A stretch of 38,451 nucleotides of DNA from positions 1-38,451 of the forward strand of contig JAITHA010000083.1 in the NCBI GenBank assembly GCA_031280235.1, given 5' to 3'. Positions 1-21,785 of this stretch are shown one piece after another. The notes beneath the pieces are model-generated. The model saw only the letters and a list, made by a program, of their open reading frames with translations. It searched no databases and was not told the DNA's origin. Within the stretch, counting starts at the first letter, position 1; each line of letters begins with the position of its first letter. This DNA comes from Puniceicoccales bacterium (lineage in GTDB: Bacteria; Verrucomicrobiota; Verrucomicrobiia; Opitutales; UBA953). A program made the position numbers and the translations under genes.

Positions 1-885
1 ATTGAAAATATCCAATATCCCCAAGCCGCCAGTATTTGGATTGATTTGGTCAAAAAAGAAATAGTCAAAGTCGAAGAAACAAAGATTCCGCATTTCACGA
101 TGCTCAATCCATATTTTTCAAAACCCGAAGATCTTAAAGAAATCGAGAACATAAAAAGAAAATACGGGGAAATCAACATAGGCCCTTGGAATATGAGCAA
201 AGTTTCTGTTGTGGGAGATGATTGCAAGAATAAAACAGCCGTTGTCTTTTGTGCCTTCATCAGTTCCCTAAAAAGGGGAGGTGAAGAACTGTTGGATGCT
301 TTTCACGGGCGCACACCAATTCCTTTTCGGAGCAATATTCCTAACATGTATGTTCAAATTGCCATCGATGAGCAAAGCAAGTATATCCTTTGGCATGGGA
401 TTTGCAATAGGAAAATTTTTGCCATCATGAAACATGAAGACAAATATCACGCTCTTGCTCTATCCTCACGATATACCACCCCGGAGGGCATTGTGGAACT
501 TTCTTTGATTTCCGGTTCGCCTGTTGACACGGAATTGCGAACAGAAAAAATCATTCCATCCAACGCAAAATTAACTCTGATTGCCTTGCGAAATCTTGTT
601 TTTCAAAGTTCTTCCAAGGATCCCCTTGATACAAGTGGGGAGCAAATATTATCGATGTCCCCGGAATGCGCAGAGGTATTTTCTCGATTTATAAAGCTTT
701 TAGACTCTGCAGAATACAAGTACTCGGCGCAATTGCAACTCAGCGAGTTGATTCCTACGAAGGACGGGAAATACTACATGGATTTCGAGATCCTCAATGG
801 CTCATCAAACAAAAAATCAGAGAAAGAATCACTCTTGCTTGATCTGAAGAATAAAATTGTCTCCAAACCAACAAAGTCCAGTTAA
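1..885 (+). CDS. Unrecognised protein, C-terminal part (gene enters from the left edge)
   Basis: The frame is open from base 1 (it reads IENIQYPQAA...), so the 5' end lies outside the window and the TTG at 46 need not be the start. I do not recognise the family. The visible ~294 residues are soluble-looking, with no signal peptide or membrane segment; they contain alternating hydrophobic strands (KTAVVFCAFI, KYILWHGICN, KLTLIALRNLVF) and end in a Lys/Ser-rich tail. The stop is TAA at 883-885, 79 bases before the ATG of the next gene, and the TTG alternative of that gene (857) would overlap this one. By position it probably belongs to the glycosyltransferase operon that follows. Base composition is AT-rich, like the first half of the next gene. 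No function is proposed. Confidence 0.6.
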   Translation: MENIQYPQAASIWIDLVKKEIVKVEETKIPHFTMLNPYFSKPEDLKEIENIKRKYGEINIGPWNMSKVSVVGDDCKNKTAVVFCAFISSLKRGGEELLDAFHGRTPIPFRSNIPNMYVQIAIDEQSKYILWHGICNRKIFAIMKHEDKYHALALSSRYTTPEGIVELSLISGSPVDTELRTEKIIPSNAKLTLIALRNLVFQSSSKDPLDTSGEQILSMSPECAEVFSRFIKLLDSAEYKYSAQLQLSELIPTKDGKYYMDFEILNGSSNKKSEKESLLLDLKNKIVSKPTKSS

Positions 886-964
886 AACCAATATCGGGAC
901 GCTCTCTCACAACGAACTAAAAGTCTTTGATTTTCTTTTTTCCGCTGACCATAAGCCATCTGCC

Positions 965-3900
965 ATGTCTATTAAAAAAGCAAAAAGGAACAACAATACC
1001 CCCCAAAGGCACATCCGTGTCTTGGTTGGGATATGCACAGCGCGCCCCTATCTGAATAGGCGCCAAGCCATCCGCGAGACTTGGCTTTCAAAAGAAGTGG
1101 AAAATGTGCACGCAGTATTTTTCCACGGCAAAACCGAGATTCCGACCGAAAACCCCGCTGATACTGTCGAACTAAATGTTCCGGACACCTATGATTTGTT
1201 GCCCACAAAGGTGCTTGCTTTTTTTCGTTATGCCTTGGAGCACTATGATTTTGAATGGATTTTCAAGTGTGACGATGACACTTATCTGGCGATGGAGCGT
1301 GTGGTCTCCATGCTCGACGACAATTATGGCCTGATAGGAGACCGCATGTTGGAAAGTCGCGGGGCACCCAGCGGCGGGGCGGGGTATTTTCTTTCTCGCC
1401 GAAGCATAGAGCAACTACTTGAACAACAAGAAGACATCGCTCAGAGCGGTCCCGAAGATTTGATCATCGGACGCTTCGCTTCCGATCGCTTGAAGATCCC
1501 CTTTCTTGCTTCCAAACGGTTGTGTTCAAGCTATTCACAAATTCCACGCAAGGATAATGATTTTGTGTCTGCACATTGGTGTTCTCCTCAAAAATTGAGG
1601 ACTATCCACGCAGTTTTCTCGTGTACTCCAATCGCCATTTGCGAAGGCATTCACACTCATTGGTCTGACAGGGTCCTTTTCTTCAGCAATGGCCTTTATT
1701 GTCGTTTTTCTACTGGCTGTACCGGTCGCTGGTCATTCAATGCCCAAGGTGCCTTGTCGCTACGCTGGGATGAATGGCGTACAGAAATTTTGGCAACCGA
1801 TGGTGAAAATTATGTTTGCTCAGGTTTTACTCTGCGCCTCGTTCAAGGAGAGTTGCCTGTACGAATCGAAGAAAACACATTTACTTCCTCAGACTCATCA
1901 TTGACATATGGGAAACGCGTACTTTTGTTTCGCTGCCATACACACTGGGAAAAATGCCGCGAGACGCTCAAAATATTAAAGCATTTCAACCCGACACTGC
2001 CTATCTATATTCTATATGGAGGGCCGCGCCAAGGCGAGTCTTCTGCCCGAAAACTGGCGGCTGAATTTGCCGAAGGTTTTTGGAGTTATCAAGCGGATGA
2101 AATCTCTGCCCACTGGAAATGGCAACACGGGGATGAGATGATCAGAGCATGGTATGAGCATTATGGATATTCGGTGGATTTTTCCCACATTTATTCCTAC
2201 GAATGGGATATCCTGCCTGTTGCCCCATTGGAAGAAATTTATCCCAAGTTTGAAGCTGACGCTGTTTACATGAGTCCCCTCAGACCGTTCACGCCCAGCT
2301 ATGAAAAACAGTGGGCTTGGACGGCAAATGGAAAATGGCGTGATTCCAGCTTCATGAAATACATGAAAACGCATTATGGAGTCTCTCGCCCAAAATACTG
2401 TACCTTAGGGCCCGCCGTGGTGTTTTCACGTAAATTTCTTGAACTTTCTCGACATCTGCCAAACTTGTCTGGTGTGCACGAAGAAATAGCCATCCCTGCT
2501 CTCGCCGAGGCTTTCGGTCTTCCACTTTACGACACCGGTATTTATACTCATCCACGCAACAAAAATCAGCATTTTTGGAACACCACAGACTCCATCAAAC
2601 GAACACGACTGCAAAATGAAGTATCTTCTGTGACCGGGATGCAAATTTTCCACCCTGTAAAATATATTGTGACACTGGAGGAGGTGCTTGCATGGAAAAG
2701 GATCGCATCTGCTCAAAAGACAAATGAAGACGTTGCACTCGCCTCGACCGAGGGAGGGGCTGTTGCCGCTTTTCGTGCTCTCAATACTCAACTCTATTCC
2801 CAATTTGACCCTACTTGGAATTTTCGCCATAACCTCTTACGACGCGAGATGCGGAAATTGAACGCATTGGGGCGTCCCGTTCATATTTTGGAGTGGGGAA
2901 GTGGAACTTCTACAGCCATTCTTTGTGACGGGCTCAAAGAAGGAAGTCACGTTTTATCAATTGAGCACGACGTCGTCTACCGCCTCGGCATCCCAGAAAA
3001 ATGGCGCACCCGACTCACTCAAAAAATACTGGCTACACAGCGCCCCTACGGCAATTCCGAGAATTATGTGACCTATCCCCTGCTAAAACATCTGCAGGAC
3101 GGAATTAAATACGACCTCATTCTCATTGACGGAAGAAATCGTGCCGATTGTCTTGCCGTAGCCGCCCTGCTTCTGGCAGATGACGGGGTTGTTTTTCTCA
3201 ACGATGCCGAACGTAATATTTATCAATGTAACTTTCCATTCTTCCAAGAAGTCAACGAAGAGAAAGCCCCCGAATCTCACCCATCAATCGCCGTCCTGCG
3301 AAAACCTCTTTGCATATTTGACAAAAAAGAAATTTCAACATTTCCTGCGCTGCTTTCTCCAAGCGAAAATAACGCGCAAACAAGCTGGGGCATCTGCACT
3401 GTGACACTTCCTCGCGAATCCCAACCTTGGCTGCGCGATTGGATAGAGCATCACGTCAAAGCAGGCGCCAGCAAAGTCGTCGTCTATGACAACACAGGAA
3501 GCACAGGAAGCTTGCGCCCAGGAACAGTATTTGCAGGAGGAAGACTACAAAAAACGCAAGTGAGCAAACGCGGAGAAGAATATGGACGCCTCACCCGCCA
3601 TTTGAGTGACGAAGAAATAAGTCAGGAACTACGCGACATCGCCGCCACGTTTCCAAATGATCGCGTAGAAATCATCCGCTGGCGCCCACGCAATCCAAGA
3701 AACAAACAAATTATCCACGGACAAGTTGAAGCCTATTGTGATTTTATCCGACGTTTTCGCGATCTTCTCACTTGGGGCACATTTCTGGATATGGACGAAT
3801 ATTTATACTGCGCCCCAGGCCTAACGGTCCAAAACATGCTCGCGCAACTCGCCAAGGAAAACCCCACGGTGGGCGCCCTCCAACTCCAATCTTGGGGTTT

Positions 3901-4276
3901 TGAATGTCGCTGGGGAACAGACGGCCCAAAAAATATCCGTGACCTCGCCACCTGCATTCCTGCCGCATCACAGTTTTCCGACAAATCATTCGTCCGCATG
4001 TCCGACGTCACCCATGCCAACATCCACATGAACTGGCGCTTCCGCAACGATGTCGAGAAACTGCGCGCGAATCCCCAAGATTTTGCTTTCTGCCATTACA
4101 ACCTCTCTCCCGGCGAATTGCACAAAGCAAAAGAATACATTCTCCCGCGCGCCTTTTTGGAAGCGCCCCCTGAGCCGATCATGCGCTTGCGAACATCCCC
4201 ACCCACATCCATCGTTGGTGAAGGCCCACTCGAACCCATGCAAGTGGACACAGCAAAAGTCCTCCAAATAGACTAA
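965..4276 (+). CDS. Giant multi-domain glycosyltransferase: GT31-like + W-rich domain + unknown GT-like domain + methyltransferase-like + GT92-like
   Basis: Numbered from the ATG at 965 (1103 aa). An in-frame TTG at 857 would add 36 residues; neither start has a clear ribosome site, and the ATG lies just before the first domain. Residues ~17-185 look like a GT31 beta-1,3-glycosyltransferase: IRETWL, DTYDLLPTK, the metal site KCDDDTYL (DDD 103-105), GGAGYFLS, and the EDLxxG motif. Residues ~233-275 form a short Trp/Gly-rich domain (HWSDRVLFF, GRW, LRWDEW). Residues ~318-545 form an unknown GT-like domain (LPIYILYGG, YEWDILP, VVFSRKFLE). Residues ~610-780 resemble a class I methyltransferase (LEWGSGTST, LSIEHD, LILIDGRNR). 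Residues ~808-1045 resemble GT92/DUF23 (LRDWIEHHVKAGASKVVVYDN, with DMDEYLY as the DxD-type site). No signal peptide is visible, so a cytosolic or inner-face enzyme adding several sugars and possibly a methyl group is inferred. The 3' half is visibly more GC-rich than the 5' half. Confidence 0.8.
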   Translation: MSIKKAKRNNNTPQRHIRVLVGICTARPYLNRRQAIRETWLSKEVENVHAVFFHGKTEIPTENPADTVELNVPDTYDLLPTKVLAFFRYALEHYDFEWIFKCDDDTYLAMERVVSMLDDNYGLIGDRMLESRGAPSGGAGYFLSRRSIEQLLEQQEDIAQSGPEDLIIGRFASDRLKIPFLASKRLCSSYSQIPRKDNDFVSAHWCSPQKLRTIHAVFSCTPIAICEGIHTHWSDRVLFFSNGLYCRFSTGCTGRWSFNAQGALSLRWDEWRTEILATDGENYVCSGFTLRLVQGELPVRIEENTFTSSDSSLTYGKRVLLFRCHTHWEKCRETLKILKHFNPTLPIYILYGGPRQGESSARKLAAEFAEGFWSYQADEISAHWKWQHGDEMIRAWYEHYGYSVDFSHIYSYEWDILPVAPLEEIYPKFEADAVYMSPLRPFTPSYEKQWAWTANGKWRDSSFMKYMKTHYGVSRPKYCTLGPAVVFSRKFLELSRHLPNLSGVHEEIAIPALAEAFGLPLYDTGIYTHPRNKNQHFWNTTDSIKRTRLQNEVSSVTGMQIFHPVKYIVTLEEVLAWKRIASAQKTNEDVALASTEGGAVAAFRALNTQLYSQFDPTWNFRHNLLRREMRKLNALGRPVHILEWGSGTSTAILCDGLKEGSHVLSIEHDVVYRLGIPEKWRTRLTQKILATQRPYGNSENYVTYPLLKHLQDGIKYDLILIDGRNRADCLAVAALLLADDGVVFLNDAERNIYQCNFPFFQEVNEEKAPESHPSIAVLRKPLCIFDKKEISTFPALLSPSENNAQTSWGICTVTLPRESQPWLRDWIEHHVKAGASKVVVYDNTGSTGSLRPGTVFAGGRLQKTQVSKRGEEYGRLTRHLSDEEISQELRDIAATFPNDRVEIIRWRPRNPRNKQIIHGQVEAYCDFIRRFRDLLTWGTFLDMDEYLYCAPGLTVQNMLAQLAKENPTVGALQLQSWGFECRWGTDGPKNIRDLATCIPAASQFSDKSFVRMSDVTHANIHMNWRFRNDVEKLRANPQDFAFCHYNLSPGELHKAKEYILPRAFLEAPPEPIMRLRTSPPTSIVGEGPLEPMQVDTAKVLQID

Positions 4277-4313
4277 TGCTTTAAAATATTTTTTCTAAAC
4301 TTTCCAAACTCCG

Positions 4314-5360
4314 GTGTCCCTTTCCATTCCACGTCTTTTTGTTTATGGATTTCCCGGACTCTATGGCGGGGCAGGGACAGAGTTGCACCATCAGATTATC
4401 GTCTGGCTAAGGATTGGGTTGGAAGTTCATATCATACCCAGCGACGCGGGGTATGCCAACGAGCTCCTTTATCCGGAGATGATATCGCTTGGTGTAAAAA
4501 TCCACCCTAAAGATGCGTGGGACGCGCTCCACCCGGGCGATCCTATACTCGGTTTCTGCAACGCCGAGTTTTTAAACTCACTCCCCGAAATACACAAACA
4601 CACACGCCGGACGGTCTTTCTTAATTGCATGACATGGCTCTTTGAGCGCGAAAAAGAACGCATGGCCCAAGGAATGATTGCCATGTTTCTTTATCAAAAC
4701 AAAACCGTCTGTGAAAAACACAAACCCGTCCTCCATGCGCTCAATCCCGGGGCCAAGGCTCGTTTTCTCACATTCAAGCCCTACTTTGATAGTTCCCGTT
4801 TTCCCTTTATCGAAGAACGCACCACAGAATATTTTGGTTGCGGACGCATTTCACGGCAAGACGCCGACAAATTTGCCCGGAATACCCTACATATCTACGA
4901 GTATTTTGTCGCTCCGGTTTTCAAGCGGGGCCTCTTCCTTGGGTTTGACCACCGTAGCGAAGCCAAAATCGGCAAGCCCTACGACTGGATACGCACCGCC
5001 TCAAACCAGACAGAAGTCTCCCAACAAGATTTCTACAAACACTGCGAAATCATTCTGCAGCCCACGGACACCACTGAAAACTGGCCGCGCGTTGGATTTG
5101 AAGCCATGGCAAGCGGAAGTGTCCTCATCGTGGACAACCGAGGCGGCTGGCAACAAATGATTGAACACGGCAAAACTGGCTGGCTCTGCAAACACGAACG
5201 CGACTTTATTTACTACGCTAGCAAAATGGCCTACGAACCCGCGCTGCGCCACGAAATTGCCCACGCTGCCCGCGAACGCGGCCAACTCCTCGGCGGCCTC
5301 GACGCCTCCCTCGCCAGCTGGATGTCCGTCCTCAAAGAACTTTCCACACTCCCCGAATAA
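4314..5360 (+). CDS. GT4-type (GT-B fold) glycosyltransferase
   Basis: The protein has 348 aa starting at GTG 4314, 37 bases after the previous stop. The N-terminus reads LFVYGFPGLYGGAGTELHHQ, the glycine-rich loop that opens many GT-B enzymes of family GT4. The C-terminal half has the donor-binding signature ENWPRVGFEAMASGSVLIVD followed by MIEHGKTGWL, where the E-x7-E region contacts the nucleotide-sugar in this family. Its role is to transfer a sugar from a nucleotide-sugar to a glycan or lipid-linked acceptor in the cytoplasm; the specific sugar cannot be read from sequence. It lies between two giant glycosyltransferases, with only one base between its stop and the next ATG, so it is almost certainly co-transcribed with the second. 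No better start with an SD motif is visible. Confidence 0.82.
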   Translation: MSLSIPRLFVYGFPGLYGGAGTELHHQIIVWLRIGLEVHIIPSDAGYANELLYPEMISLGVKIHPKDAWDALHPGDPILGFCNAEFLNSLPEIHKHTRRTVFLNCMTWLFEREKERMAQGMIAMFLYQNKTVCEKHKPVLHALNPGAKARFLTFKPYFDSSRFPFIEERTTEYFGCGRISRQDADKFARNTLHIYEYFVAPVFKRGLFLGFDHRSEAKIGKPYDWIRTASNQTEVSQQDFYKHCEIILQPTDTTENWPRVGFEAMASGSVLIVDNRGGWQQMIEHGKTGWLCKHERDFIYYASKMAYEPALRHEIAHAARERGQLLGGLDASLASWMSVLKELSTLPE

Positions 5361-5361
5361 A

Positions 5362-8300
5362 ATGAATCCACGCACTCTTATCCTGGTAAAAACTTCGCCA
5401 GCCAATCACGGACAACGTGACGTCTGTCATCAAACTTGGCTTTCTTTGAAAAAACCAGATCAGCAAATTATCTTTTTTTCTGAAGAACCATCTCCAGACA
5501 AAAACATTATCCATCTGAAACAAAATACCGCTGGGAATCTAATAGAGAATGTGGTACTCTGGGCTTATGAACGCTTCCAATTTGAGTATTTGTTTATTTG
5601 TAAAGACGACGCTTATATACGCTTGGATAAATTTAATCTGCTTGAAGCTTATTGCGATGAGCAAGGCGGGGCCATCGGAGAAGCAAGATTTCCTCTGGTG
5701 ATGTTTTCCAACGCGGCGTGTCGCAACACTAAAGTTTTCTCCAATTTACGACCATGTGCGGCTATTTCTAAAGAAGGCGGTATGCCGAGCGCCTCAATTG
5801 TGGCAAGCATACCCGGAGACCACCATCGTATTGTTCATCGACTAAGGGAAGTAAAGATTATTGCAGAAATGGAGTTCTGTCACAATGTGTGGTCGGGAGA
5901 TGTGTTTTTTTTGAAAAATGGCATTTTTGCCAGATCCAATGAAGCACGCTTTGGAAAATGGGAATATGATGGCGATACACTTACACTTGACTGGTTCGAT
6001 TGGGGAATTGAGAGGCTCCGAAATGAACGGGGAATTTTCCAAGCTTCTTTTTCAACGGCTATTTTGTTGAATGGACAACTACCTATCACCGTGCAAAGAA
6101 AAATGCAAAAGCGTGTTTTTGATGTCAAAGAACATCTTATTGTCTATAGATTTCATGAAAATTTTAATGTCGTCCGCGAACGCATAGCCAATTTAGCCGA
6201 ACTGAACCCAGGCATCCAAATCCATGCGCTCTACGGCGGTTCAATTGAACGGCTTGATGCTGCAAAAAATGCTGTAGAAAAGTATGTAGAACGCTTCTAC
6301 TATCCTGAATTTTATAGAGCTTCGACTCCACAGTGGATGAAATGGGCCAATCCAGGATTGATAGGAATTCGACAATGGTGGGAAGCTGAGGGAAAGACAA
6401 CAAGTGCCCGCTTTTTCCATCTTCATGAATCGGATATTCTGGCACTTGGGCCATTTTCTGAAATGTATGACGGTTTCGCCGACGATCTCATTCTTTCAGG
6501 GAATAGTGTCATGTTCGACGGAAGCGATTGGGCCCGATCCTATTACAGCAGTAATGGACAAGAATTGATGGACTGGTTCCGAAAACAGGGACTTGCAGAG
6601 CCGCCGCTAAGGTTTCATATTTTTGCGGGAACAGTCTATCCGCGGAAATTCTTGGAGGATGTTTCGAAAGCACCAATGTGCATCGGTATTTCTGATGAGG
6701 CAGACACTGCCTTTTTTGCCGAATTATTCGGATACACAATTGAGCGGATTGGAAATGCGTTTTTTGGAAGCTGGTCCTTTGTTAATGTAGAGGGCGACGT
6801 TCTTGGACAAATTAAAGAAGGAAAGAAGTTCTTCCATTCTGTGAAAAGATCCCTCAAAGCATTAGAAGATGAAGTTCGATTTCGGCTTCCGCTTGAAACT
6901 CGTAGGAAAGCAGAAATCTATTGGGCCCAAAAATGGCAAGAATCTAAAAAAACTGGACCAGAACAAGATTTGCCCATTGTGGGAGCAGAAAAATTGCAAA
7001 AAGCCGAACATGTGACTCTTGTCTTTACGGGAGATGCAGGCTATTTGAATAAAATCAGTTATTGTCTCGCCGGTATCTTTGCAAACACTAGAGCGAGTTT
7101 GAGAGTGATTTATGTTTCCAATGAAATTCCAGATCAATACGATCTCGCAAGGGTAGAAGCGAAAATTCTACAGAACAATGCCGAATTTATATTTATTCAA
7201 GATCCCGAAAATTTTCGAGGTGTTTCCAAGTCTGATTATTTTGCGCCTTGCTGGCACCGTTTGCGATTGCCTTGGCTTCTCCCCGAGGAAGATGTCATTA
7301 TCACAATGGATCCTGATGTTTTTGTTCGTGAGGATATCGCTTTTTTACCAAGCCTCATCCTTGACAATTCTGCAATCGCTGCCGCCTTCGATAGTGGGTT
7401 CTATAACGGCGATGACAAATTGCCCGCGCTTGCAAGGCACGTCAAAACAGGAACCATTAACGCGGGTGTTATGGTAATGCGATTAAGTTGGTTTAGAAAA
7501 AATTGGCAATACTCAATCACGCGTGAAAGTGCGAGGCATACCTACGAAGATTTGGCATGCCCGGAACAACAATTTCTGCAAGTCACAACATGGCAGAATA
7601 TCAATTACATTGATCTCCAAATTGTGGCAAACAACCTTAATTTCCGCCAGCGTTTCTTTGATTCTTTTGGATATCAAGATCGATTTGCCGCTTTCAACGC
7701 ACCTTTTGCTCATTGCCTCTGGAGTAAACCGTGGCGATTCATTAACAATCTGGAATCACACAGCTATCACTGGCAAAGACTCATGAAGCGCTACTTGACT
7801 GAAGAGACACTACGCCCTAGAAAATGGGCACCTCTAATAAAGTGTACTCTTCCACACGCCAAAATATTTGTCGTTTTTGATTCTCGTCGTGCACATGTTG
7901 CCCGTAGAAACTCCATTCGGGAATTATCTGCGCAGAATCTCGCTCCAGAAGTACGAGTTTTCTTTCTCTGCGGCAGAGGGGATTTTGCGCTTGAAAAGGC
8001 CAAAGACATCATCGAAGTCGACTGCGATGACAATGATGCTTGTGCCACATTACGCTGCAAATTGCTTTTCAACATCTTGCAGGAAAAGGTGCCCGAAGCT
8101 GACCTCTTTCTCGCCGATGAAGACGCTTGCGTTAAATTTGGAGCGATAAGTATACTTGCAGGGACGCAATCTCTCGTCTCTGGGCGCCCCGGGCACATGG
8201 AGGGGATCCTGAGTCGCTACGCACCCGAACTCGGTGGCGGATTCTTTGTTCCTTCCAAAGTATTACAGGACTTGAAAGAAGCCGAAATCAGAAAGTTCAC

Positions 8301-8448
8301 TCGCCCAGGATGGTGGATTTGTGAGTCATCCGAAGACTTGGGACATTCCTTGACTTTGTCCCCTGAAATTTACAATTATGCCACTATCGAGCAGCCCGGA
8401 GCTTTGTCTTATTTCCCCGAAAGCAACAAACAAACTATAGCATCATGA
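5362..8448 (+). CDS. Giant multi-domain glycosyltransferase: GT31-like + W-rich domain + unknown GT-like domain + GT8 + second GT31-like
   Basis: The ATG at 5362 follows the previous stop by one base and gives 1028 aa; the frame is open to 5161, but that stretch overlaps the GT4 gene. Residues ~5-165 are a weak GT31-like domain (CHQTWLSL, FICKDDAYIRL). Residues ~176-218 repeat the Trp-rich domain of the first giant protein (WSGDVFFLKNGIFAR, GKW, LDWFDWGIERL). Residues ~258-475 repeat its unknown GT-like domain (IQIHALYGG, HESDILALGPFSEMY, AGTVYPRKFLED). Residues ~550-800 are GT8: TLVFTGDAGYL, the metal site MDPDVF (649-654), and INAGVMVM (699-706). Residues ~833-1000 are a second, shorter GT31-like copy (RRNSIRELS, FLADEDACVKF, GGGFFVPSKVL). 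The protein ends in ATGA, overlapping the next start by 4 nt. No export signal. A processive or multi-step glycan builder is inferred. Confidence 0.8.
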   Translation: MNPRTLILVKTSPANHGQRDVCHQTWLSLKKPDQQIIFFSEEPSPDKNIIHLKQNTAGNLIENVVLWAYERFQFEYLFICKDDAYIRLDKFNLLEAYCDEQGGAIGEARFPLVMFSNAACRNTKVFSNLRPCAAISKEGGMPSASIVASIPGDHHRIVHRLREVKIIAEMEFCHNVWSGDVFFLKNGIFARSNEARFGKWEYDGDTLTLDWFDWGIERLRNERGIFQASFSTAILLNGQLPITVQRKMQKRVFDVKEHLIVYRFHENFNVVRERIANLAELNPGIQIHALYGGSIERLDAAKNAVEKYVERFYYPEFYRASTPQWMKWANPGLIGIRQWWEAEGKTTSARFFHLHESDILALGPFSEMYDGFADDLILSGNSVMFDGSDWARSYYSSNGQELMDWFRKQGLAEPPLRFHIFAGTVYPRKFLEDVSKAPMCIGISDEADTAFFAELFGYTIERIGNAFFGSWSFVNVEGDVLGQIKEGKKFFHSVKRSLKALEDEVRFRLPLETRRKAEIYWAQKWQESKKTGPEQDLPIVGAEKLQKAEHVTLVFTGDAGYLNKISYCLAGIFANTRASLRVIYVSNEIPDQYDLARVEAKILQNNAEFIFIQDPENFRGVSKSDYFAPCWHRLRLPWLLPEEDVIITMDPDVFVREDIAFLPSLILDNSAIAAAFDSGFYNGDDKLPALARHVKTGTINAGVMVMRLSWFRKNWQYSITRESARHTYEDLACPEQQFLQVTTWQNINYIDLQIVANNLNFRQRFFDSFGYQDRFAAFNAPFAHCLWSKPWRFINNLESHSYHWQRLMKRYLTEETLRPRKWAPLIKCTLPHAKIFVVFDSRRAHVARRNSIRELSAQNLAPEVRVFFLCGRGDFALEKAKDIIEVDCDDNDACATLRCKLLFNILQEKVPEADLFLADEDACVKFGAISILAGTQSLVSGRPGHMEGILSRYAPELGGGFFVPSKVLQDLKEAEIRKFTRPGWWICESSEDLGHSLTLSPEIYNYATIEQPGALSYFPESNKQTIAS

Positions 8449-9497
8449 CTCCTATATCTACCACGCTCTCTTTTGTACAGAGGCCCCACATTCGCCCAGG
8501 GTCACCTGAGTTCCCAATGCAACCGAGGACGGACGCTGTACACATTGCTCAGTTTGTCACAGATGACCAATCGCAGGTTATTATTGATTGTCTGGCATCC
8601 ATTGTTGAAAACACAATGCGTCCATTGAAGTATACTGTCTTTACTCATGGTCATTTTTGTGGCGACGGTGTTGTGCTGCGAGGCGTAGAGGTTTTCTGCA
8701 AGAAGTATAGAATTGCCTATGAACACATCCTCATTTCTTCAGCCTATGCATCATCAGCTGACATCTTAAAATTTGAAATTCCATTTCTTCTTGAACACGA
8801 AGAACGAGTAATAATTTTAAACACAAATACCCTTGCATTCGATGACATTGGTCGACTATGGGATCTGGACATGTATGATCTCCCGATTGTAGCCCTAAAC
8901 GAAAGCCAATATCCTTGGGATGCGGATGGGCAACAAGTTTTGATCCCTGACGGGGAGGGAGCGTTTCAAACGGGTGTCTATCTCATCAATATCCATAGAT
9001 ACATAGAAGTCTTCTCGCAGAAAGGTGACCAAAGAGCTGCCTACCATTTTATGCATGGTTTGGGAGGTAGCCAACCACTTTTTAATCATCTGTTTTCAGG
9101 AGATATTTACTACTTGCCACCAGGATGGGGACATCTACTTTGTATAAATCATAATAAGCTCTCTCCTAAACTATCTGAGGCGAATGCACATCCGTCGCTG
9201 GATTACTTATTTGAGAAGCCGCTTTCAGGGAAAGGACAATTTGATCCTATCTATCGCTCCATGAGGCGACGACGGGAAATATTGCACATCGGTATTGTGG
9301 CGCTGGATTTGGTGGCCACATTCTGTATATTTTCCCTGACGAACATCGTCGAGAAAAAATTATACAAGAGCTGGGCGATGACAAAAACCCTCTTATTGCA
9401 GTTGAGCCATATATCCGAAGAATTGATGAGAGATACGATTTGTCTCACATCAGAGATGGCTATTTTGACAAATAATTGTCTCAGGTGGAAAATCTAA
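8445..9497 (+). CDS. GT8-like glycosyltransferase with degenerate DxD and probable C-terminal frameshift
   Basis: The ATG at 8445 overlaps the preceding stop (ATGA). The first ~270 residues resemble GT8: HIAQFVTDDQSQ, SSADILKFEIPFLL, RVIILNTNTLAFDDIGRLWD and FQTGVYLINIHRY. In GT8 enzymes the metal-binding motif is DxD; here the equivalent is N-T-N (126-128), so catalysis is doubtful or altered. Around 9285 the coding signal seems to switch frame: the annotated frame becomes hydrophobic and odd (HIGIVALDLVATFC), while the frame with codons beginning at 9287 reads HRYCGAGFGGHILYIFPDEH and then a charged, natural-looking sequence to a TAA at 9473-9475. The gene is therefore either frameshifted in nature or affected by a sequence error. 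It is probably the last gene of the glycosyltransferase operon. Confidence 0.65.
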   Translation: MTPISTTLSFVQRPHIRPGSPEFPMQPRTDAVHIAQFVTDDQSQVIIDCLASIVENTMRPLKYTVFTHGHFCGDGVVLRGVEVFCKKYRIAYEHILISSAYASSADILKFEIPFLLEHEERVIILNTNTLAFDDIGRLWDLDMYDLPIVALNESQYPWDADGQQVLIPDGEGAFQTGVYLINIHRYIEVFSQKGDQRAAYHFMHGLGGSQPLFNHLFSGDIYYLPPGWGHLLCINHNKLSPKLSEANAHPSLDYLFEKPLSGKGQFDPIYRSMRRRREILHIGIVALDLVATFCIFSLTNIVEKKLYKSWAMTKTLLLQLSHISEELMRDTICLTSEMAILTNNCLRWKI

Positions 9498-9534
9498 CAC
9501 CTTCCACACACTTTTTTGAACTACACAAACAACC

Positions 9535-10935
9535 ATGAAAATATCAATCCGTTTGGAAAGAAAAACTCTGGGAGCAGCCTTGTCTGGTGCGCTTCTGGTG
9601 TTGCTTGCGGGCGTCCCAGCGTGGGCACAGTCTGTCAATAAGGGCTCTGCCCTTGATCAGGCCTTGGCGTCGGTTTCCGAAGTAAGCGGGATAAAACTTC
9701 CTGACAAAAATCGCGTGCTTGTCGTTGAGCGCAAGAGATCGATAAGTGATGAGCACGCCATCTACAAGCTGGGAGCTCCTTGGAGCCCGTTTCAGGCAAC
9801 GGGCTTTGTTGCCGAAAAAGGCAAGCCTTTCACGGTTTATTTGATTATTGATCCCGATGATGTGTGCCCGAATCTGGACATCATCAATCTGGGCAAGTAT
9901 AATTGGGACGACCAGGTTGGCCAAACATTAAAACCGGGAAAAAATGAGATAACCCCGACGAAGAGCGGTATCATGTATATTGCGAACCCGCATCAACAAA
10001 AACGTCCGCCTGTTGTTTATTTTGCGGACAGCCCAATGATGCCGCTTTATCGGCATGGGAAGACGACGCGAGAGGAATGGAAAACAATGTTGAAAAAAGA
10101 AAATCCGTACGGAATGGTGGAGATTGTCACTCAGCGAACAATGTTCACGCTCACTGCTGAAAAATTTAAGAAGACCCCCCCTAATATTGAAAAACTCTGC
10201 GAAACGCTCGAAGAAATTATGAGTGTTTACGCTCGCCTGCTGGGTCTTTCTGAGAAAAACCCTCCGCCTAACGATATTCCCCAGAATGTGATGCATATTA
10301 TCGAAGTGGACGCGGGCTATATGTACGCCACAAATTGTCGCATCGCATTCCATCGCGATGTGATACATGAAATCCTTGATTACCAGAATAATCGGAAAAG
10401 TGGGTGGGGGCTTTGGCACGAAATCGGGCACATGCATCAAGTACAGGAATACAAATTTAATGACATGTCAGAAGTGACGGTAAATATTTTCTCCCTTGAG
10501 GCGCAAGCTCATTTCAAAAACCGTGCGCGGATAGACTCTCCTGAAATGCGTACAGCCATTCAGAAACATCTCGCTTTACCTAGGAATAAACGTGATTATC
10601 ATAAAATTGGGGATGTCTTTATAAAGTTGGCCATGTTTTGGCAACTCCGGCTTGCCTTCGGGGAAGATTTTTATCCCAAATTGCACAGGTACAATCGTGA
10701 ACACAATCCAGAGCAGGAAGATAGACAACAGTATTTCATCCAGCTTTCGTCCCGGATTTCAGGCTATGACTTGAGGCCGTTTTTTGAAGCGTGGGGCCTG
10801 TCTGTCAGCCCCCAAACAGAGGATGCTATCTCAAAACTGAAACTGCGAAAACTGACCCAACAAATCTGGCGAAATTTGAATTTCTCCCAAGTAACGTCCA
10901 AGGGGCGCGTCGGCGTTGCTCCTTCAAAATATTAA
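9535..10935 (+). CDS. Secreted M60-like (enhancin/mucinase-type) zinc metallopeptidase
   Basis: The protein has 466 aa. The N-terminus is a clear Sec signal peptide: basic start, hydrophobic core GALLVLLAG, and an AWA-QS cleavage site near residue 31. The catalytic signature is GWGLWHEIGHMHQ (HEIGH at 295-299) followed by EVTVNIFSLEA, where E313 is the expected third zinc ligand. The combination HExxH...E with the VNIFSL phrase is typical of peptidase family M60/M60-like, whose characterised members cut O-glycosylated, mucin-like proteins. The ~290 residues before it probably include the family's beta-rich accessory domain. It acts in the periplasm or outside the cell. It lies 37 bases after the GT8-like gene on the same strand; no SD or promoter is obvious. 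Whether it acts on host mucins or the cell's own glycoproteins is not visible. Confidence 0.8.
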   Translation: MKISIRLERKTLGAALSGALLVLLAGVPAWAQSVNKGSALDQALASVSEVSGIKLPDKNRVLVVERKRSISDEHAIYKLGAPWSPFQATGFVAEKGKPFTVYLIIDPDDVCPNLDIINLGKYNWDDQVGQTLKPGKNEITPTKSGIMYIANPHQQKRPPVVYFADSPMMPLYRHGKTTREEWKTMLKKENPYGMVEIVTQRTMFTLTAEKFKKTPPNIEKLCETLEEIMSVYARLLGLSEKNPPPNDIPQNVMHIIEVDAGYMYATNCRIAFHRDVIHEILDYQNNRKSGWGLWHEIGHMHQVQEYKFNDMSEVTVNIFSLEAQAHFKNRARIDSPEMRTAIQKHLALPRNKRDYHKIGDVFIKLAMFWQLRLAFGEDFYPKLHRYNREHNPEQEDRQQYFIQLSSRISGYDLRPFFEAWGLSVSPQTEDAISKLKLRKLTQQIWRNLNFSQVTSKGRVGVAPSKY

Positions 10936-11072
10936 CCCGGCATGAGCATTTTCATAGAATGATCTTGCATTATTTATCGGGGGAAGCATTATCTTTGAGC
11001 CATGGAAATAATAGAAAAACAGGATTTTAGAACTGTCTGTCCAGAGCTCAGGGTGGCAATTCGCAAGCGCGG

Positions 11073-11738: not shown

Positions 11739-11844
11739 TAAAAAACCAGCACGCCGAGATAGACGCTACAAGGATTAGTCGTACTCCTGCCAAGAGACAC
11801 CTTTGTCTTTCACTTGTAGCGCCTATCCCGGCGCGCCGTTTTTT
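11739..11844. terminator. Bidirectional intrinsic terminator with a 21-bp stem
   Basis: Arms 11752-11772 (CGCCGAGATAGACGCTACAAG) and 11813-11833 are inverted copies with two mismatches; a small nested hairpin (GAGACACC.../TGTCTTTC region) lies in the 40-base loop. On the - strand the stem is followed by GGTTTTTT (A run 11740-11745), directly after the end of the PEP-CTERM gene. On the + strand it is followed by a T6 run at 11839-11844, which reaches the first base of that gene's stop codon. The element can therefore stop transcription from both converging directions. Confidence 0.75.
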
Positions 11845-14800
11845 CAGTTCTGGCAATTATATTCGTGCTTTTGCTCGCATTTTTCCGCTTTCTTATTTTT
11901 CCGACGTCGGTGCCTGTAGGCAAGCAGCCCTAACAAACCAAGGCCACTGAGAAGTCCGTAGGTACTAGGTTCGGGAATGATGGCCGTAATCTGCATCCAC
12001 GTATGATCGCCGTCACTAAAAATTTTATATTTGAAGGCATAGCTGTTTTTTAATTCCTGATCAGAGTTCGCCAAGGCTGTGTAGCCATAAGTATCTGTCC
12101 AGAGAATATCGTTTGCCACCGCTACGGAGGTGCTGCCGTCTATCAGCGTGAACGTGTCGCCAACTTTTATGGTGTAATTGCTCACAACGAGGGAGAGGCG
12201 AACATTACCGCCTGCGTTACTGGCCAAGGTGCCACTACCATCAAAGTGCAAGCCCGTGTTTATCGCACCACCGCTGCCGTCGCCCATTATTTGGACGAGG
12301 AAGGTAGCGCCGTACGATAGGACCACTGAGCCCCCGTCGGAGATCGTCATCTGTTGGCGTTTTCCCGAGCTGTCATTGGCAACAAGCGCCGCACCATCGC
12401 CGCTGACACCGGGAGCAAAGACAGCGCCGACACCTTGGAGCGTGATATTGCTGAGATTATTCAAAGTGCCTTTCCCGCCAAGGGTTCCTCCGTGTTCGAC
12501 TACCCAGCCGCCTGGATTGTCAGCTGATATGGCACCAGGATCTGTATAAGTGCTCGTCCCTGACACGATGAAATTCGGATTCGTCGTTGTCCCGTTGATA
12601 TAGAGGCCGCCACCGCCCCTGTCCACAAATACGCTGCCGGTTGAAATGTTGTCGCCTGTCAGGATCACTTTACCGCCGCCGTTGGTATGCACGGCCCCTG
12701 CTCCGGAAATCACTCCTCCATAGGTGTAGTTGTGGCCCCAAGCACGTGAGAAGGTTAGCGTGCCGCTGTTGAGTATGCTCATCACGGGGCGAGCGGCTGG
12801 AGTAAATGTCCCCAAACTGTCCAGCACAACCGAGCCCGTTCCCCCTATTGTCAGGCTGTATCCTGTATAGTCTCCCCCTGATTTCGTGTGCCCTTTTGAG
12901 CCAACGGCATTATTGAATACAACTGCGCCATTGACGACGATGTCTTCCATATCAACCACGTTGTTGAAACGGGCGGAAGCCCCTGTCTCTATCGTCAGGC
13001 GACCCTTGGTGGGAACGGTACCCGCGCCCTGTGCAAGTTCCCACGCACTGCCAACAATATTGCCTCCGCTGAAGACGAAATTGGTTCCTACCACGAACAT
13101 ATCGCTGACGATGACCCCTCCACTATCTGTTGTAACGTCGACATTCTTGGTAATGTCGATCGCATCCTCAAAGCGAACCGTGTCCAAGTTGTAGAAAAAG
13201 TCGTCGGAATAGGGAGAGGCCGTGCGCTTCCAATCTTGGTCGGTTCCGGCCCTTACCCATGTGCGGCTCCCAGCGCCAAAATAGTTCCAAGTCAGATCTG
13301 TGGAAGGAGCACTTTTGGTCTCAAAGACTAAATCCGTGCCATTCTCGATGCTTAATTTCCCAGCCAAGCGAACGCCTGAGGCTGCATAACCATCAATTGA
13401 TATGCCCTTGTATTGTAAAGTGGTAGCGGCCAAATCTGCCGCAGTTGTGTTGTTTATACCCTCGTCTGCATGTAGTATCACATATTTACGATCCGTCGCC
13501 CACGGGGTGCCCGGGGTATGCACGCCCCCCGTAGCATTCATGTCGCTCACATCGATGATGTTGCGGTTCGCCTGTGTTGCCGCGCCTCCGCTTCCGAATG
13601 TAGCGCTTCCAGGAACGCTTATCAAATCCGTTAGATAGTAGCCTGAGCCTGCCCCCCCGACCTCGACGTTGTGATCCACATCTAGCTTATAAATAATGCC
13701 TTCAAAGTTTGTCGTGCTTCCGCTCTTGCCGAGTGTGAACGTCCCCACAGTGCCCGCATGGTGAATGCCGTTGAAGTGGTCGTGCTCAGAGCTGGTACCG
13801 GGTGAGATAACGATGCCGGCGGCAAAGGTGGGATTAACTATCGAGCCAGAGCCTTCAAGCACACCAGCCTGCATGGAAAATGGTGCTGCTATTGCGCCAT
13901 CAACACCGAGAGTGCCAGGGCCTGTTTTTACAACGGCGCCTGTGCGTATCAATCCGCCAGAGAGATCGTAGTCTTGTTGTGTAATGGTGTTGCCTGTGCC
14001 AAGCCATTGCAGAGAGCCCGGTGTCGGCGTAGAGAATGTCAAAACAGAGCCGTCTTCTATGCCAATGGCACCCTTGTAACCTCCATTCACATTATCAGCC
14101 AGACGGCCTGAAACGGTCAGATTCCCCGAGCGTATTTCGATGTTAAGCGAACCCTCTAGAGGCGTCCCCGTCAGGGTGCTGTTGCCGGTGAGCGTCAAGT
14201 CGCCTATCCCCGTCTTCTTTATCGAGCCTGTCGCCAAGGAATTGCTACCGCCAAACTCCGCCGGGCCAGAAGACATATTCAAGGCGCTCAACGACGCACC
14301 AAGGTCGGTGTCAATCGTCCCGCCAGCAACTGGATCCACAGCCCATGGCTTGTTAGAAACAATGTCGGAAAGTTCGACAAAGCGAAACGTGCCACCAATT
14401 AAATAACGCTTGCCGTTGAGTGCATTGAGCGCATCATTTTCGGCAATACCTAAAACAGAATGCGCCCCCACGGCGATATCACCTAAGAATCCAAAATTAC
14501 TCCCAGTAAGCAGGAGTGTAGCCACGCTGCCAGCACCCACACCTGAAATAAACAACGTGTTTTTCCCTCCGTTGATGCCTGCCGGTCCAGAAATGTCTCC
14601 AGCAAACATCTGCTCAGTCGCGCTCCTCACCGTGAGGGTCGTCTTCACCCGATTGCTATTTCCAAAAATGATATCTCCCGAGTAGACATACCTGCCAGCG
14701 ATAAAACTGCCCAAATTGGCCGTGCTTAGCAGATTCAGGCCAGCCACATTGCAATCCGCGTCCGGGGTCCCGGTGATGTTGAAATCAAAATAGATATCCC

Positions 14801-17800
14801 CTGTGAATTCATTTTGCCCGGCAAGGTTCAAGACGCCGCCTCGTGTTGCGGCATAATAATTCCTCAACGTCAAATCGCCACTGCCCTTGAGGTTCCCGTT
14901 AAAGAAACTTTCCCTGTCCCTGAAAAGGGTGCTGGCACCGGCATTCTGGCCCGCCGCAATAAGATTTGTGTACACAGTTAGCGACCCGCCCAAAGGGATG
15001 TTTATTATGCCGCCAGGATTTGATACATCCGAATAAATAGTGTTCACACTTTGCGCGTACACCCCAGTATCAAAAGTCGCACCAGGCTTCACCCATAAAA
15101 CAGAGCTGGTGCCTATCGCATCTGCCACACCGCCCTGCAAAGTGCCCGTATAAACAACTGTCGCACCAGAATAGGAATTTTGCGCGTGAGAAAGGACAAG
15201 TGCCGGTCCTCCTGCTCTACCGACAATCCCAAGATGCCCTGCGCCGGAAATCTTCGCAATGAAGTCATTGCCGCCCGAGTGTGAATAAGTTGAGGCGTTG
15301 TCAAACAGGGTTATCTTATCTTGTTGCAGATTCAACTCACTTAATTTGGTGCCGAGATAAAGCCCATCATTGCCTGGCCCTGTGTTGAGATTTGCAGCTG
15401 TCGTGTCGATTATCTTCTTGGCTGTGATATTTTGAGCATTTGCGGTAACCGATGACCCAAAAGATTGCGCAAAATCAAATTCATAGACGTTGAGACCGGT
15501 GGACGCCCCCTGATCGAGATCAATCCCGCTTGCGGAGCTGGGCACATAAACATATGGGACATACTGATTTGGAATACTTGGGTGCTTGACCTGTACGATC
15601 ACATTATTAACACCGCCCGTCGTCGTGCGTGCGCTCGCAAGCTGTCGCAAATTGCCATAATTATCTTGTAGCAAAAGTGGCGTGGTGTTTGGCTGATTAT
15701 TGGAGCCTTCGATAACATCCCTGACATCGTCCGCCGTTCCCTCAAGGCGAATGTAACTCACGGGATCCGTGCCGTATGTTCCCAACGCGAGCACACCCTT
15801 CGGAGAGACCGCCATCGCATCGACAAAGCTCTTCATTCGAGGGTAAGACGTCACAATTGGAAACTGGTAGCCAAGATCCGTGAAATGCAAAATACCGCCT
15901 GCAAGATTCAAACCCGCCATCTTCGTATCACCCGTAGGAACGGTGATAAAACTACCGGGGCCGACGATTAAATTTGCGTTCGTTATGGCCTTTGCCGCCG
16001 AGCCAGAGGTCAATACATATTGCAAATTCCGCAAATGGAAATCGCCCTTGAAATTTTGCATGTTCTCCGCAACAAGCGTATTTTGATCTGGCAAGCCCGT
16101 TAAACTACTCGGTACCCGGGCCAAGTCCACATACACCTCACCTCCCGTTGTCGTACTCGTGGTGATCGCGTTATTTATCGTATAAGTGCCGTTGACATCC
16201 AAGGGTGCTAGATCAATCGCTAAGCGCCCGTACGCGCCAGCAGGAGAATCGGCATTTACCTCCACTGCCCCAGTACCAAGAGAGAATGTGGATTTGCTCG
16301 CAAGAGCATCCCCTTGGCCAAAATCCGATACCCGTAAAGTGCCATCCCAGATCGCCGTTCCTCCCGTATAAGTGTTTTTATTGCGTCCTGTGGTGTCAGG
16401 GAAAGTGAAGCCGTTCGCATAAAAAGTCCCTGGCCCTTCCTTGTGTAATTTCCCTGATCCAATGATTCCCGCCTGTATTATTGCGGTCGAAGACTCCAAG
16501 CGGAAATTATCTCCGGCATTCGGCGTGGTAAGGTAGAAATTATTGCCAGCCCCTCCTGTTGTGATGGCAATCGGGTTCTGACTGGCGTTCTCCAACCTGA
16601 CAATACCATGCCCGCCAATCCCTGCATTGTTATTCACAGTCAAACCACCGCTACCAACCTGCACGGCGAGCAGAGAATCATCTTCGACGATAATACGGCC
16701 ATCAGCGTTCAGCACAAGCTTTTGCGATTTAAACCTCGTCCCTGTTCCTCCGACAATTGCCGCAAAACCTGTGCCATTTCCCACCGTAAGCGTCCCCCCA
16801 CTCGTCGTACCAAATTCGATAACCGGCGAGAGAAATTGTTCATTCTCTAACACCAAGCGCCCTCGATTCACATTCGTGGTAATCGTCGGGGTACTGCTGT
16901 AATCATAAAATATCAGATCCCCGGTACCATTCTTGTTGATCGTGGCTGCAGACCCGGCTATCGGATCTTTAAACATCACCTTCGAAGTTTCGGATGTAGA
17001 AACATTAAGAGTTGCAGCACCACCAAATTGAATCGCATTGCGTGTCCCGCCAGTCCAAGAGTAAGAATTTCCGCTACCACTCCAAGTTGGATTTGCTACA
17101 TTGCCTTCAAAAAGAATGTCCCCCGTACTATCTGCCGTCAGTGAGATGGTGCCACCACTCATGTAAATCGCCCCACCGCTAGTTTGGGCTGCATTGCCCA
17201 CAAACTGCGACCCAGGCCCAAGATTGATTACTGCATTTGATACAAAATGAAAGATGGCACCTCCGTGTCCTTGCCCGCCACTTGGCGAGAGAACATAATT
17301 GCCAGTAAAGACCGCTGCCTTGCTGAAATTAAATACGAACTGACCTCCACTGTCTTTACGGGAAGCGCTTATCGCGCCACCACCCGACCCGCTCCAGTCA
17401 CCCGACCCGTTCATCGCAATGACCCGATTCCCAGTAAAAGCCACTCTTTCGTTAAAGTTCAAAGTCACGTATCCATTTAAAGCGCCAACATTTATCGCCC
17501 CCCCACGCTGCCACTTGTTTGCAGAATCCCAGTTTGGTGTAGTAAAGCTGGTTTGGTTATCATTAAGATATTGAACGTAGTTGTTGATAAACTCTGTTTC
17601 TCCATTAAAATTAGCCGTTGCATGGGCCCCAAAAAAATCTATGGCACCACCGTAAAAGTTGGAACTATTTCCGATAAAGCTAAGTGTTTGCCCAGCACTC
17701 TGATTAAAATTGAGTATGTTCCGCCCAGTCTGGCTCGCACTTCCTGTGTTGTAACCGTGAACGATAATAGCACCACCAAAGTTCCCTGTTCTGTTATTTA

Positions 17801-18536
17801 GAAAGGCAACATTCCCGCTCATATTTAAGGTCCTGTTTGCATATCCGGATAGATTATCCGCAGAACCCAAACCTATCACACCACCCGTGTTCTGTGAACC
17901 ATAGTTTCCTTCAAATACGACTCCAGCGGTTCCACCGTTGATATTAAGGGTTACGGCACCGCTTGATTCTATCGGCGAGAAGACCGCACCCCTCCGAGTT
18001 GTGCCAGTATAACTTTGGTTAATACCCTTGATAACGCTTCCGTCCAGATTGTACGTTGCCGTTCCGTTGCTTACAAACAAAGCATTGCTTTGCGCGCTAC
18101 CACTCCGGGTGAGCTCCACGTTATAGAGATTAAATATGTCGCCTGTACTATTCAGCGCTTGCCCGCTTGACGAGGACGTCACAGTAAGAATGGGCTTTGA
18201 AACCGAAGGGTCAGGATAGGCTCCTGGGTCTGCTTGAATCGTATAAGTACCACTAATGCTCTTGGAACCAGCCCAAGTCGCGTTCCCGAGGAGTTCGTAG
18301 GATCCAGTGGTGCCGGGCACGTTCGTGCCTGGGTTAACAGTTACCGCCTTGATTTCGGGCTGCCAAAGTACCGCACATGCGGCTGCCGCGAAGAGAGTCG
18401 CGACACAAAGCACACGCTTTTTGCCGGGCGGACAAACCGGGATGGAAACACTTGTCTTTCGTTCCTTCTTCGTGGAAGAAGAAGCCGCAGCGCACGCGGA
18501 GTTAGATCTTAGTCCAAGGGATTTTGTGTCTTTCAT
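11844..18536 (-). CDS. Giant PEP-CTERM surface protein with Pmp-type and autotransporter-type beta repeats
   Basis: 2230 aa. The ATG at 18536 has a purine-rich AGGCAGGAC just upstream. The N-terminus has a long basic/polar stretch (~40 residues) and then a hydrophobic core (VLCVATLFAAAACAVLW), that is, an extended signal peptide. Residues ~150-560 contain repeated GGAI and FxGN/FINN motifs like chlamydial Pmp repeats (GGAIDFFG, GGAINVG, GGAIFHF, GGAIYMSGG). The middle carries autotransporter-associated beta-strand repeats (SYSGATVVYTGTL, KTGIGDLTLTGN, KTGPGTLGVDG), predicting a long beta-helix. The C-terminus is a PEP-CTERM tail: PEPSTYGLLSGLGLLGLLAY then RHRRRK, the signal for exosortase-type sorting. 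There is no autotransporter barrel. Unusually, ~17 further polar residues follow the basic cluster. It is probably an adhesin or surface/matrix protein, located outside or on the outer surface. Confidence 0.88.
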   Translation of the reverse strand: MKDTKSLGLRSNSACAAASSSTKKERKTSVSIPVCPPGKKRVLCVATLFAAAACAVLWQPEIKAVTVNPGTNVPGTTGSYELLGNATWAGSKSISGTYTIQADPGAYPDPSVSKPILTVTSSSSGQALNSTGDIFNLYNVELTRSGSAQSNALFVSNGTATYNLDGSVIKGINQSYTGTTRRGAVFSPIESSGAVTLNINGGTAGVVFEGNYGSQNTGGVIGLGSADNLSGYANRTLNMSGNVAFLNNRTGNFGGAIIVHGYNTGSASQTGRNILNFNQSAGQTLSFIGNSSNFYGGAIDFFGAHATANFNGETEFINNYVQYLNDNQTSFTTPNWDSANKWQRGGAINVGALNGYVTLNFNERVAFTGNRVIAMNGSGDWSGSGGGAISASRKDSGGQFVFNFSKAAVFTGNYVLSPSGGQGHGGAIFHFVSNAVINLGPGSQFVGNAAQTSGGAIYMSGGTISLTADSTGDILFEGNVANPTWSGSGNSYSWTGGTRNAIQFGGAATLNVSTSETSKVMFKDPIAGSAATINKNGTGDLIFYDYSSTPTITTNVNRGRLVLENEQFLSPVIEFGTTSGGTLTVGNGTGFAAIVGGTGTRFKSQKLVLNADGRIIVEDDSLLAVQVGSGGLTVNNNAGIGGHGIVRLENASQNPIAITTGGAGNNFYLTTPNAGDNFRLESSTAIIQAGIIGSGKLHKEGPGTFYANGFTFPDTTGRNKNTYTGGTAIWDGTLRVSDFGQGDALASKSTFSLGTGAVEVNADSPAGAYGRLAIDLAPLDVNGTYTINNAITTSTTTGGEVYVDLARVPSSLTGLPDQNTLVAENMQNFKGDFHLRNLQYVLTSGSAAKAITNANLIVGPGSFITVPTGDTKMAGLNLAGGILHFTDLGYQFPIVTSYPRMKSFVDAMAVSPKGVLALGTYGTDPVSYIRLEGTADDVRDVIEGSNNQPNTTPLLLQDNYGNLRQLASARTTTGGVNNVIVQVKHPSIPNQYVPYVYVPSSASGIDLDQGASTGLNVYEFDFAQSFGSSVTANAQNITAKKIIDTTAANLNTGPGNDGLYLGTKLSELNLQQDKITLFDNASTYSHSGGNDFIAKISGAGHLGIVGRAGGPALVLSHAQNSYSGATVVYTGTLQGGVADAIGTSSVLWVKPGATFDTGVYAQSVNTIYSDVSNPGGIINIPLGGSLTVYTNLIAAGQNAGASTLFRDRESFFNGNLKGSGDLTLRNYYAATRGGVLNLAGQNEFTGDIYFDFNITGTPDADCNVAGLNLLSTANLGSFIAGRYVYSGDIIFGNSNRVKTTLTVRSATEQMFAGDISGPAGINGGKNTLFISGVGAGSVATLLLTGSNFGFLGDIAVGAHSVLGIAENDALNALNGKRYLIGGTFRFVELSDIVSNKPWAVDPVAGGTIDTDLGASLSALNMSSGPAEFGGSNSLATGSIKKTGIGDLTLTGNSTLTGTPLEGSLNIEIRSGNLTVSGRLADNVNGGYKGAIGIEDGSVLTFSTPTPGSLQWLGTGNTITQQDYDLSGGLIRTGAVVKTGPGTLGVDGAIAAPFSMQAGVLEGSGSIVNPTFAAGIVISPGTSSEHDHFNGIHHAGTVGTFTLGKSGSTTNFEGIIYKLDVDHNVEVGGAGSGYYLTDLISVPGSATFGSGGAATQANRNIIDVSDMNATGGVHTPGTPWATDRKYVILHADEGINNTTAADLAATTLQYKGISIDGYAASGVRLAGKLSIENGTDLVFETKSAPSTDLTWNYFGAGSRTWVRAGTDQDWKRTASPYSDDFFYNLDTVRFEDAIDITKNVDVTTDSGGVIVSDMFVVGTNFVFSGGNIVGSAWELAQGAGTVPTKGRLTIETGASARFNNVVDMEDIVVNGAVVFNNAVGSKGHTKSGGDYTGYSLTIGGTGSVVLDSLGTFTPAARPVMSILNSGTLTFSRAWGHNYTYGGVISGAGAVHTNGGGKVILTGDNISTGSVFVDRGGGGLYINGTTTNPNFIVSGTSTYTDPGAISADNPGGWVVEHGGTLGGKGTLNNLSNITLQGVGAVFAPGVSGDGAALVANDSSGKRQQMTISDGGSVVLSYGATFLVQIMGDGSGGAINTGLHFDGSGTLASNAGGNVRLSLVVSNYTIKVGDTFTLIDGSTSVAVANDILWTDTYGYTALANSDQELKNSYAFKYKIFSDGDHTWMQITAIIPEPSTYGLLSGLGLLGLLAYRHRRRKNKKAEKCEQKHEYNCQN

Positions 18537-21694: not shown

Positions 21695-21726
21695 GGCCCC
21701 TGCCGCAGTCCGCAAAGATTCAACCA

Positions 21727-21762: not shown

Positions 21763-21785
21763 ACGCCCACCGTGGGGCAGCGCCA

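Follow-up and report, generated by a model that had tools for sequence, protein, structure and literature searches.

What is the role of the two domains that recur, in the same order, in two giant enzymes encoded on contig JAITHA010000083.1 of a Puniceicoccales bacterium (Verrucomicrobiota; assembly GCA_031280235.1)? The window analyzed here is a stretch of 38,451 nucleotides of this contig, and both enzymes, P1 and P2, are encoded on its forward strand. A preliminary description of the locus had noted in each of them a short W-rich domain and, after it, a domain of ~220 residues, and had proposed the pair as a candidate new glycosyltransferase family. We refer to the former as the W-rich module and to the latter as the EWD domain, after its E-W-D motif. 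The reading that we consider likely is that the EWD domain is a transferase with the GT-A fold that uses nucleoside diphosphate (NDP) sugars, that it belongs to a family new to Pfam, NCBIfam and PHROGs, and that it acts as one station in fusion enzymes. The novelty is at the level of the family, within the known GT-A superfamily.

P1 (857–4276; an ATG at 965 is a possible start) and P2 (5362–8448) were delineated by open reading frame (ORF) calling and Pfam, in P2 also by BLASTP. The P2 ORF opens at 5161, and its real start is most likely the ATG at 5362, directly 3' of a gene for a GT4-type glycosyltransferase; the residue numbers of the preliminary description match starts at 965 and 5362. 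The two proteins align over 578 residues with 23% identity (BLASTP E=2e-33). Against 500 shuffles, the W-rich module scored z=20.7, the EWD domain z=26.3 and the N-terminal GT31-type domain z=15.7, a sequence similarity far above chance. Because the similarity also covers the N-terminal GT31-type domain, the shared unit is, by sequence, one of three domains: the GT31-type domain, the W-rich module (1616–1891 in P1, from a 22-row alignment and an AlphaFold2 model; 5863–6096 in P2, from comparison with P1 and the same alignment) and an EWD domain of ~260 residues (1904–2671 in P1, from homologs, an AlphaFold2 model and PDB fold matches; 6130–6861 in P2, from alignment and a profile match with E=1.6e-74). 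Beyond this unit the proteins diverge, P1 continuing with a methyltransferase-like segment and a GT92 domain, and P2 with a GT8 domain and a second GT31-like domain.

The observation of shared domains in both enzymes is confirmed by this comparison. All phrases on which it had been based were found, in the order claimed: HWSDRVLFF (1658–1684), GRW (from 1724), LRWDEW (1760–1777), FNPTLPIYILYGG (1985–2023), YEWDILP (2198–2218) and VVFSRKFLE (2417–2443) in P1, and VWSGDVFFL (5887–5913), LDWFDW (5986–6003), LNPGIQIHALYGG (6202–6240), HESDIL (6424–6441) and TVYPRKFLED (6631–6660) in P2. The region assigned to the pair, 1763–6790, is the right one, with a start ~100 bases late, the pair beginning near 1616–1658, and an end ~70 bases early, the P2 copy extending to about 6861.

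The proposal of a new glycosyltransferase family is borne out for the EWD domain, as far as the family collections and the predicted fold are concerned. The search for a clear match to a described family, run with the isolated domain and with stand-alone proteins, yielded no Pfam match above chance and none in NCBIfam or PHROGs. In particular, neither the isolated domain nor the stand-alone members matched PF01501 (GT8) at E≤10, the GT8 match in P2 being a different domain, and the EWD domain did not match PF01762 or PF02434 (GT31). Among PDB sequences, queries with either a single domain or the profile found chance matches only. A search of an open-access collection of papers turned up no account of an EWD family or of fusions like these. 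Some CAZy families have no Pfam models, and it is conceivable, but in our view rather doubtful, that CAZy already describes the EWD family and that Pfam and NCBIfam simply have no model for it; this would have to be reconciled with the lack of a sequence match, single or profile, in any of these collections of families and solved structures.

The EWD domain is predicted to have the GT-A fold. The AlphaFold2 model, built from ten sequences, had a predicted local distance difference test score (pLDDT) of 87.1 and a predicted template modeling score (pTM) of 0.87. A Foldseek search of the PDB with this model returned 132 matches at E≤0.001, the best being glycogenin (E 2.6e-6), and the best 50 of the 132 were all GT-A enzymes: GT8 glycogenin, LgtC, LARGE1, XXYLT1, UGGT, GnTI, mannosylglycerate synthase, and xylosyltransferase. 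In a viral structure library, the named matches included many GT8 and other glycosyltransferases. The comparison with GT-A enzymes, suggested earlier as a check, thus gave GT-A matches and, among these best 50, no unrelated fold.

Four marks characterize GT-A active sites, DxD, G-loop, xED, and C-His (PMC7185993), and we looked at their counterparts in an alignment of ten EWD sequences (~25% identity). Invariant in this alignment are N-P, L-[YW]-G-G, W-K-W, the Asp of W-D, an F, and E196, with H252 being near-invariant, and the conserved residues are upheld in a wider set of profile matches. The counterpart of DxD, a candidate metal or donor site, is [EQ]-W-D after a strand (E449-W450-D451 in P1, 2201–2209; E-S-D in P2). 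The earlier suggestion of a DxD-like site at E-x-D fits this position. Its first acidic residue is not strictly conserved, since the members from Azospirillum, Acidimicrobiales, and the cyanobacterium have Q there, and the Asp alone is invariant. The G-loop takes the form L-G-P-[AG] or similar (L-G-P-x-x-V-F) in P1, its ortholog at locus L024, locus L028, and the Bacteroidales and Chlorobiota members; in the branch of Azospirillum, the cyanobacterium and Acidimicrobiales, the Gly is absent from the column or shifted. The counterpart of xED is the invariant E196 (E543 in P1, 2483–2485) at the start of helix 195–205, a Glu rather than an Asp and the candidate catalytic base. Finally, H252 (H599 in P1, 2651–2653), which lies in F-H-P and is present in all rows reaching that column, is the C-His equivalent and candidate metal ligand.

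In GT43 and GT14, too, the Asp of xED is replaced by Glu (PMC7185993), although no sequence relation of the EWD domain to either was detected, and GT14 has lost DxD, while the EWD domain keeps it in altered form. With GT31 (Fringe, C1GalT1, B3GNT2; PF01762/PF02434), a domain of which is fused beside it, the EWD domain shares the GT-A fold, and an hhalign comparison with the neighboring GT31 profile paired E543 with the Asp in the ED motif of GT31 and one G-loop with the other (SGGAGY..ED), a register with weak statistics (probability 0.7%, not significant). With such a value, the EWD domain is not a recognizable duplicate of the adjacent GT31 domain, and we rejected the idea that it arose by duplication of the latter. 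Given the counterparts of the four marks, the hhalign register and the precedent of GT43 and GT14, the EWD domain is probably inverting and metal-dependent.

Several observations weigh against this interpretation. The fold matches are distant (TM about 0.4–0.5, 8–14% identity), and therefore they indicate the superfamily but say nothing on the reaction catalyzed. The three groups with Q at the first DxD-like position also lack the G-loop Gly, and the EWD domain of P2 has lost some of the conserved residues. Moreover, the best fold matches are retaining GT8 enzymes, whereas the motif argument favors inversion. As the nearest folds are retaining, a retaining reaction is a serious rival: the EWD domain would then be a GT-A transferase with a GT8-like mechanism, and the invariant Glu would have some other role, e.g. 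in acceptor binding. Both glycogenin and LgtC, among the best PDB matches, are retaining, LgtC has a metal-binding C-terminal His, and stereochemistry arose many times within GT-A (PMC7185993). GT8 (glycogenin, LgtC, the N-terminal domain of LARGE1; PF01501) indeed resembles the EWD domain in its fold, metal site and C-terminal His, but differs from it in having D-x-D for E/Q-W-D, in lacking the invariant Glu at xED, and in sequence, with no PF01501 match and about 11% identity in the structural alignment. On the other hand, the helix that follows the G-loop region begins with an invariant acid, which occupies the base position of inverting enzymes, while in retaining families the xED position varies (PMC7185993). 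We regard retention as possible, albeit unlikely.

To see where else the EWD domain occurs, we scanned 84,980 species genomes; as the scan required short exact patterns, its counts are a lower bound. It found at least eight loci, from a Puniceicoccales metagenome-assembled genome (the P1 ortholog, L024, 78% identity), Chlorobiota, Bacteroidales, the cyanobacterium Stenomitos, Azospirillum, Acidimicrobiales, and one other Verrucomicrobiota genome of another class. Except for the P1 ortholog, these encode stand-alone proteins of 264–311 aa. The domain is scattered over at least six bacterial phyla. When whole genomes were searched with the profile, it was found in 4 of 82 genomes of the Azospirillum order and in 2 of 198 of the Acidimicrobiales order; the query genome was the only one to match among 244 Cyanobacteriota and likewise among 247 Bacteroidota, and the window's genome the only one among 223 of its own order. 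The EWD domain is rare and patchily distributed. No relatives were found in viral contigs, phages, or plasmids, and a phage or plasmid origin is therefore unsupported. In Bacteroidales, Chlorobiota, Stenomitos, and the other Verrucomicrobiota genome, the neighbors of the stand-alone EWD genes include GT1, GT2, GT4, and WecG-type glycosyltransferase genes. At three loci, the gene that immediately precedes the stand-alone EWD gene, in the same orientation, encodes an unrecognized protein with a sulfotransferase-like start (FTISTGRTGTHYLSKLF; L025, 4108–4905; L026, 4246–5097; L027, 7134–7985); the L025 copy had no Pfam match.

The W-rich module is distributed differently. Of 388 genomes of the phylum searched in six frames with the P1 stretch, 20 matched: the window's own, one with the EWD domain only (G124), and 18 with the W-rich module only, 16 of the latter from one genus in another family of the same class. 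A W-rich profile matched none of 148 Bacteroidota genomes, a search that had no positive control and shows little. The module, ~90 aa long and without a Pfam match, has 22 aligned copies that share H-x-x-W, F-x-x-N-G, R, G-C-x-G-x-[WY], L-x-L-x-W-x-x-W, and E. A GT31 (Galactosyl_T) domain directly precedes it in ten proteins of differing architecture, in which the further partners vary (Gb3_synth/DXD, Methyltransf_11, GT11, pyruvyl transferase, GT2 plus GT25), and in L006, L013, L015, and L022 the module ends the protein. Such fusions of GT31 and W-rich to many partners (GT11, methyltransferase, pyruvyl transferase, GT25, DXD-type) are seen over loci L005–L022, mostly from one genus of the same class. 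Since GT31 stands just before it in every relative checked and the partners vary, the W-rich module is, judged by this context, an accessory of bacterial GT31 units.

AlphaFold2, given three sequences, modeled the module with eight strands; of the five models, the best reached pLDDT 78 and the others 37–56. Because the model is all-beta, the module is probably neither a transferase nor otherwise catalytic, and a role as a sugar-nucleotide enzyme was dropped in view of this model and of the constant adjacency to GT31. Foldseek gave weak matches, with small beta-barrels first (best E 0.024). The small eight-stranded barrels TP0435 (4u3q) and Atu4866 (2jmb) are similar in all-beta strand order, with Foldseek probabilities of 1.00 and 0.97, but the E-values are only 0.024 and 0.22 and no common sequence is seen; a small, calycin-like beta-barrel is a lead.

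This distribution bears on whether the two domains form one functional unit, that is, a single new enzyme, as their initial description as a pair implied. Their order is identical in P1, P2, and L024, all of which have GT31, W-rich, and EWD in succession. Yet the W-rich module lacks the EWD domain in every other genome seen, following GT31 by itself even at the end of proteins, and the EWD domain lacks the W-rich module everywhere outside this lineage. A single unit is therefore largely refuted by the distribution, and we consider it very improbable. Neither the pair as a unit nor the W-rich domain as part of the new glycosyltransferase could be upheld; in the genomes compared, W-rich and EWD are separate modules, fused in this lineage only, and the former looks like an all-beta add-on of GT31 domains.

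Within this lineage, the EWD domain of P1 compared with its L024 ortholog has a ratio of nonsynonymous to synonymous substitutions (dN/dS) of 0.067, with synonymous changes near saturation, and by this sequence measure is under purifying selection. In L024, an additional ORF of 533 residues without a Pfam match (979–2577), absent from the window, lies between the upstream gene and the P1 ortholog. The EWD copies of P1 and P2 cluster in the tree with support of 97/95, although the P2 branch is very long (2.27), which may affect the grouping. The tree fits a duplication of the GT31, W-rich, and EWD unit in one lineage, with the partners swapped afterwards.

In the EWD domain of P2, neither the Asp of W-K-W..G-D nor the Trp of E-W-D is kept, and the N-terminal GT31 part of P2 is degenerate and matches no Pfam model. 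Because of both, the P2 copy may be impaired and P2 may be partly a scaffold. Carried further, the EWD domain, at least in P2, would resemble GT-A but act as a scaffold without catalysis, a role for which COSMC, the partner of the GT31 T-synthase, is a precedent (PMC7185993) and to which the long P2 branch also points. We think this unlikely, as P2 retains the E, the D, the invariant Glu, and the His, and P1, its ortholog, and the stand-alone proteins retain the whole set.

The remaining parts of both proteins were assigned as follows. In P1, the GT31-type domain (Galactosyl_T/Fringe; 1004–1606; PF01762 E=1.9e-13, PF02434 E=1.2e-6) matches solved GT31 enzymes and has the motifs CDDDTY, SGGAGY, ED, and VSAHW, invariant in the GT31 alignment. 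Downstream of the EWD domain follow a Rossmann methyltransferase-like segment with LEWGSGTST (2888–3205; Methyltransf_24 E=3.3e-4, under the curated cut-off) and the GT92 domain (3413–4102; PF01697 E=3.3e-15). P2 has a GT8 domain (7018–7614; PF01501 E=2e-9) and a C-terminal GT31-like domain with D-E-D and SED (7855–8340; BLASTP against the P1 GT31 domain E=2e-8), for which Pfam matches were sub-threshold only.

Between P1 and P2 lies the GT4-type glycosyltransferase gene (4314–5360; PF00534 E=5.3e-9), and P2 is followed by a stand-alone GT8 gene (8445–9497; PF01501 E=6.4e-8), both on the forward strand. Directly downstream of this glycosyltransferase cluster, an M60 (enhancin/mucin-type) metallopeptidase with a HEIGH motif is encoded (9535–10935, forward; PF13402 E=1.4e-54). 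On the reverse strand, 11844–18536 encodes a surface protein of 2230 residues that carries PATR repeats of the autotransporter type and, at its C terminus, a PEP-CTERM sorting motif. The G+C content is ~45% over the cluster (1–11000) and ~56–62% in the right half of the window (20000–38451), and L024 has the same step, from 42 to 66%. This points to a glycan island that is either foreign or evolving fast.

For the EWD domain as an inverting transferase, we infer the following activity, metal use, and pathway. The domain would bind uridine diphosphate (UDP)- or another NDP-sugar via a divalent metal, with the invariant Asp of [EQ]-W-D and the C-terminal His as ligands, and would transfer the sugar with inversion, the invariant Glu (E543 in P1) acting as the base. 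It would be one station in the series GT31, EWD, methyltransferase, and GT92 of P1, and in the series GT31-like, EWD, GT8, and GT31-like of P2, and the stations of both enzymes may form, one after another, the linkages of a single surface glycan. The W-rich module would belong to the GT31 part as a small all-beta accessory.

We lean slightly toward the broader view that the EWD domain represents a new family at CAZy level whose metal site is [EQ]-W-D and whose base is a Glu, that it has spread horizontally over at least six phyla, and that it serves here as one station in enzymes that assemble a glycan with a single polypeptide. If so, a small, patchy, yet sequence-coherent family would be added to the GT-A superfamily, with free-standing members convenient for expression, in which the predicted metal site and base lend themselves to direct tests. 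Bacterial GT31 domains, in turn, have a recurrent accessory module of their own and are shuffled among many partner enzymes in fusions.

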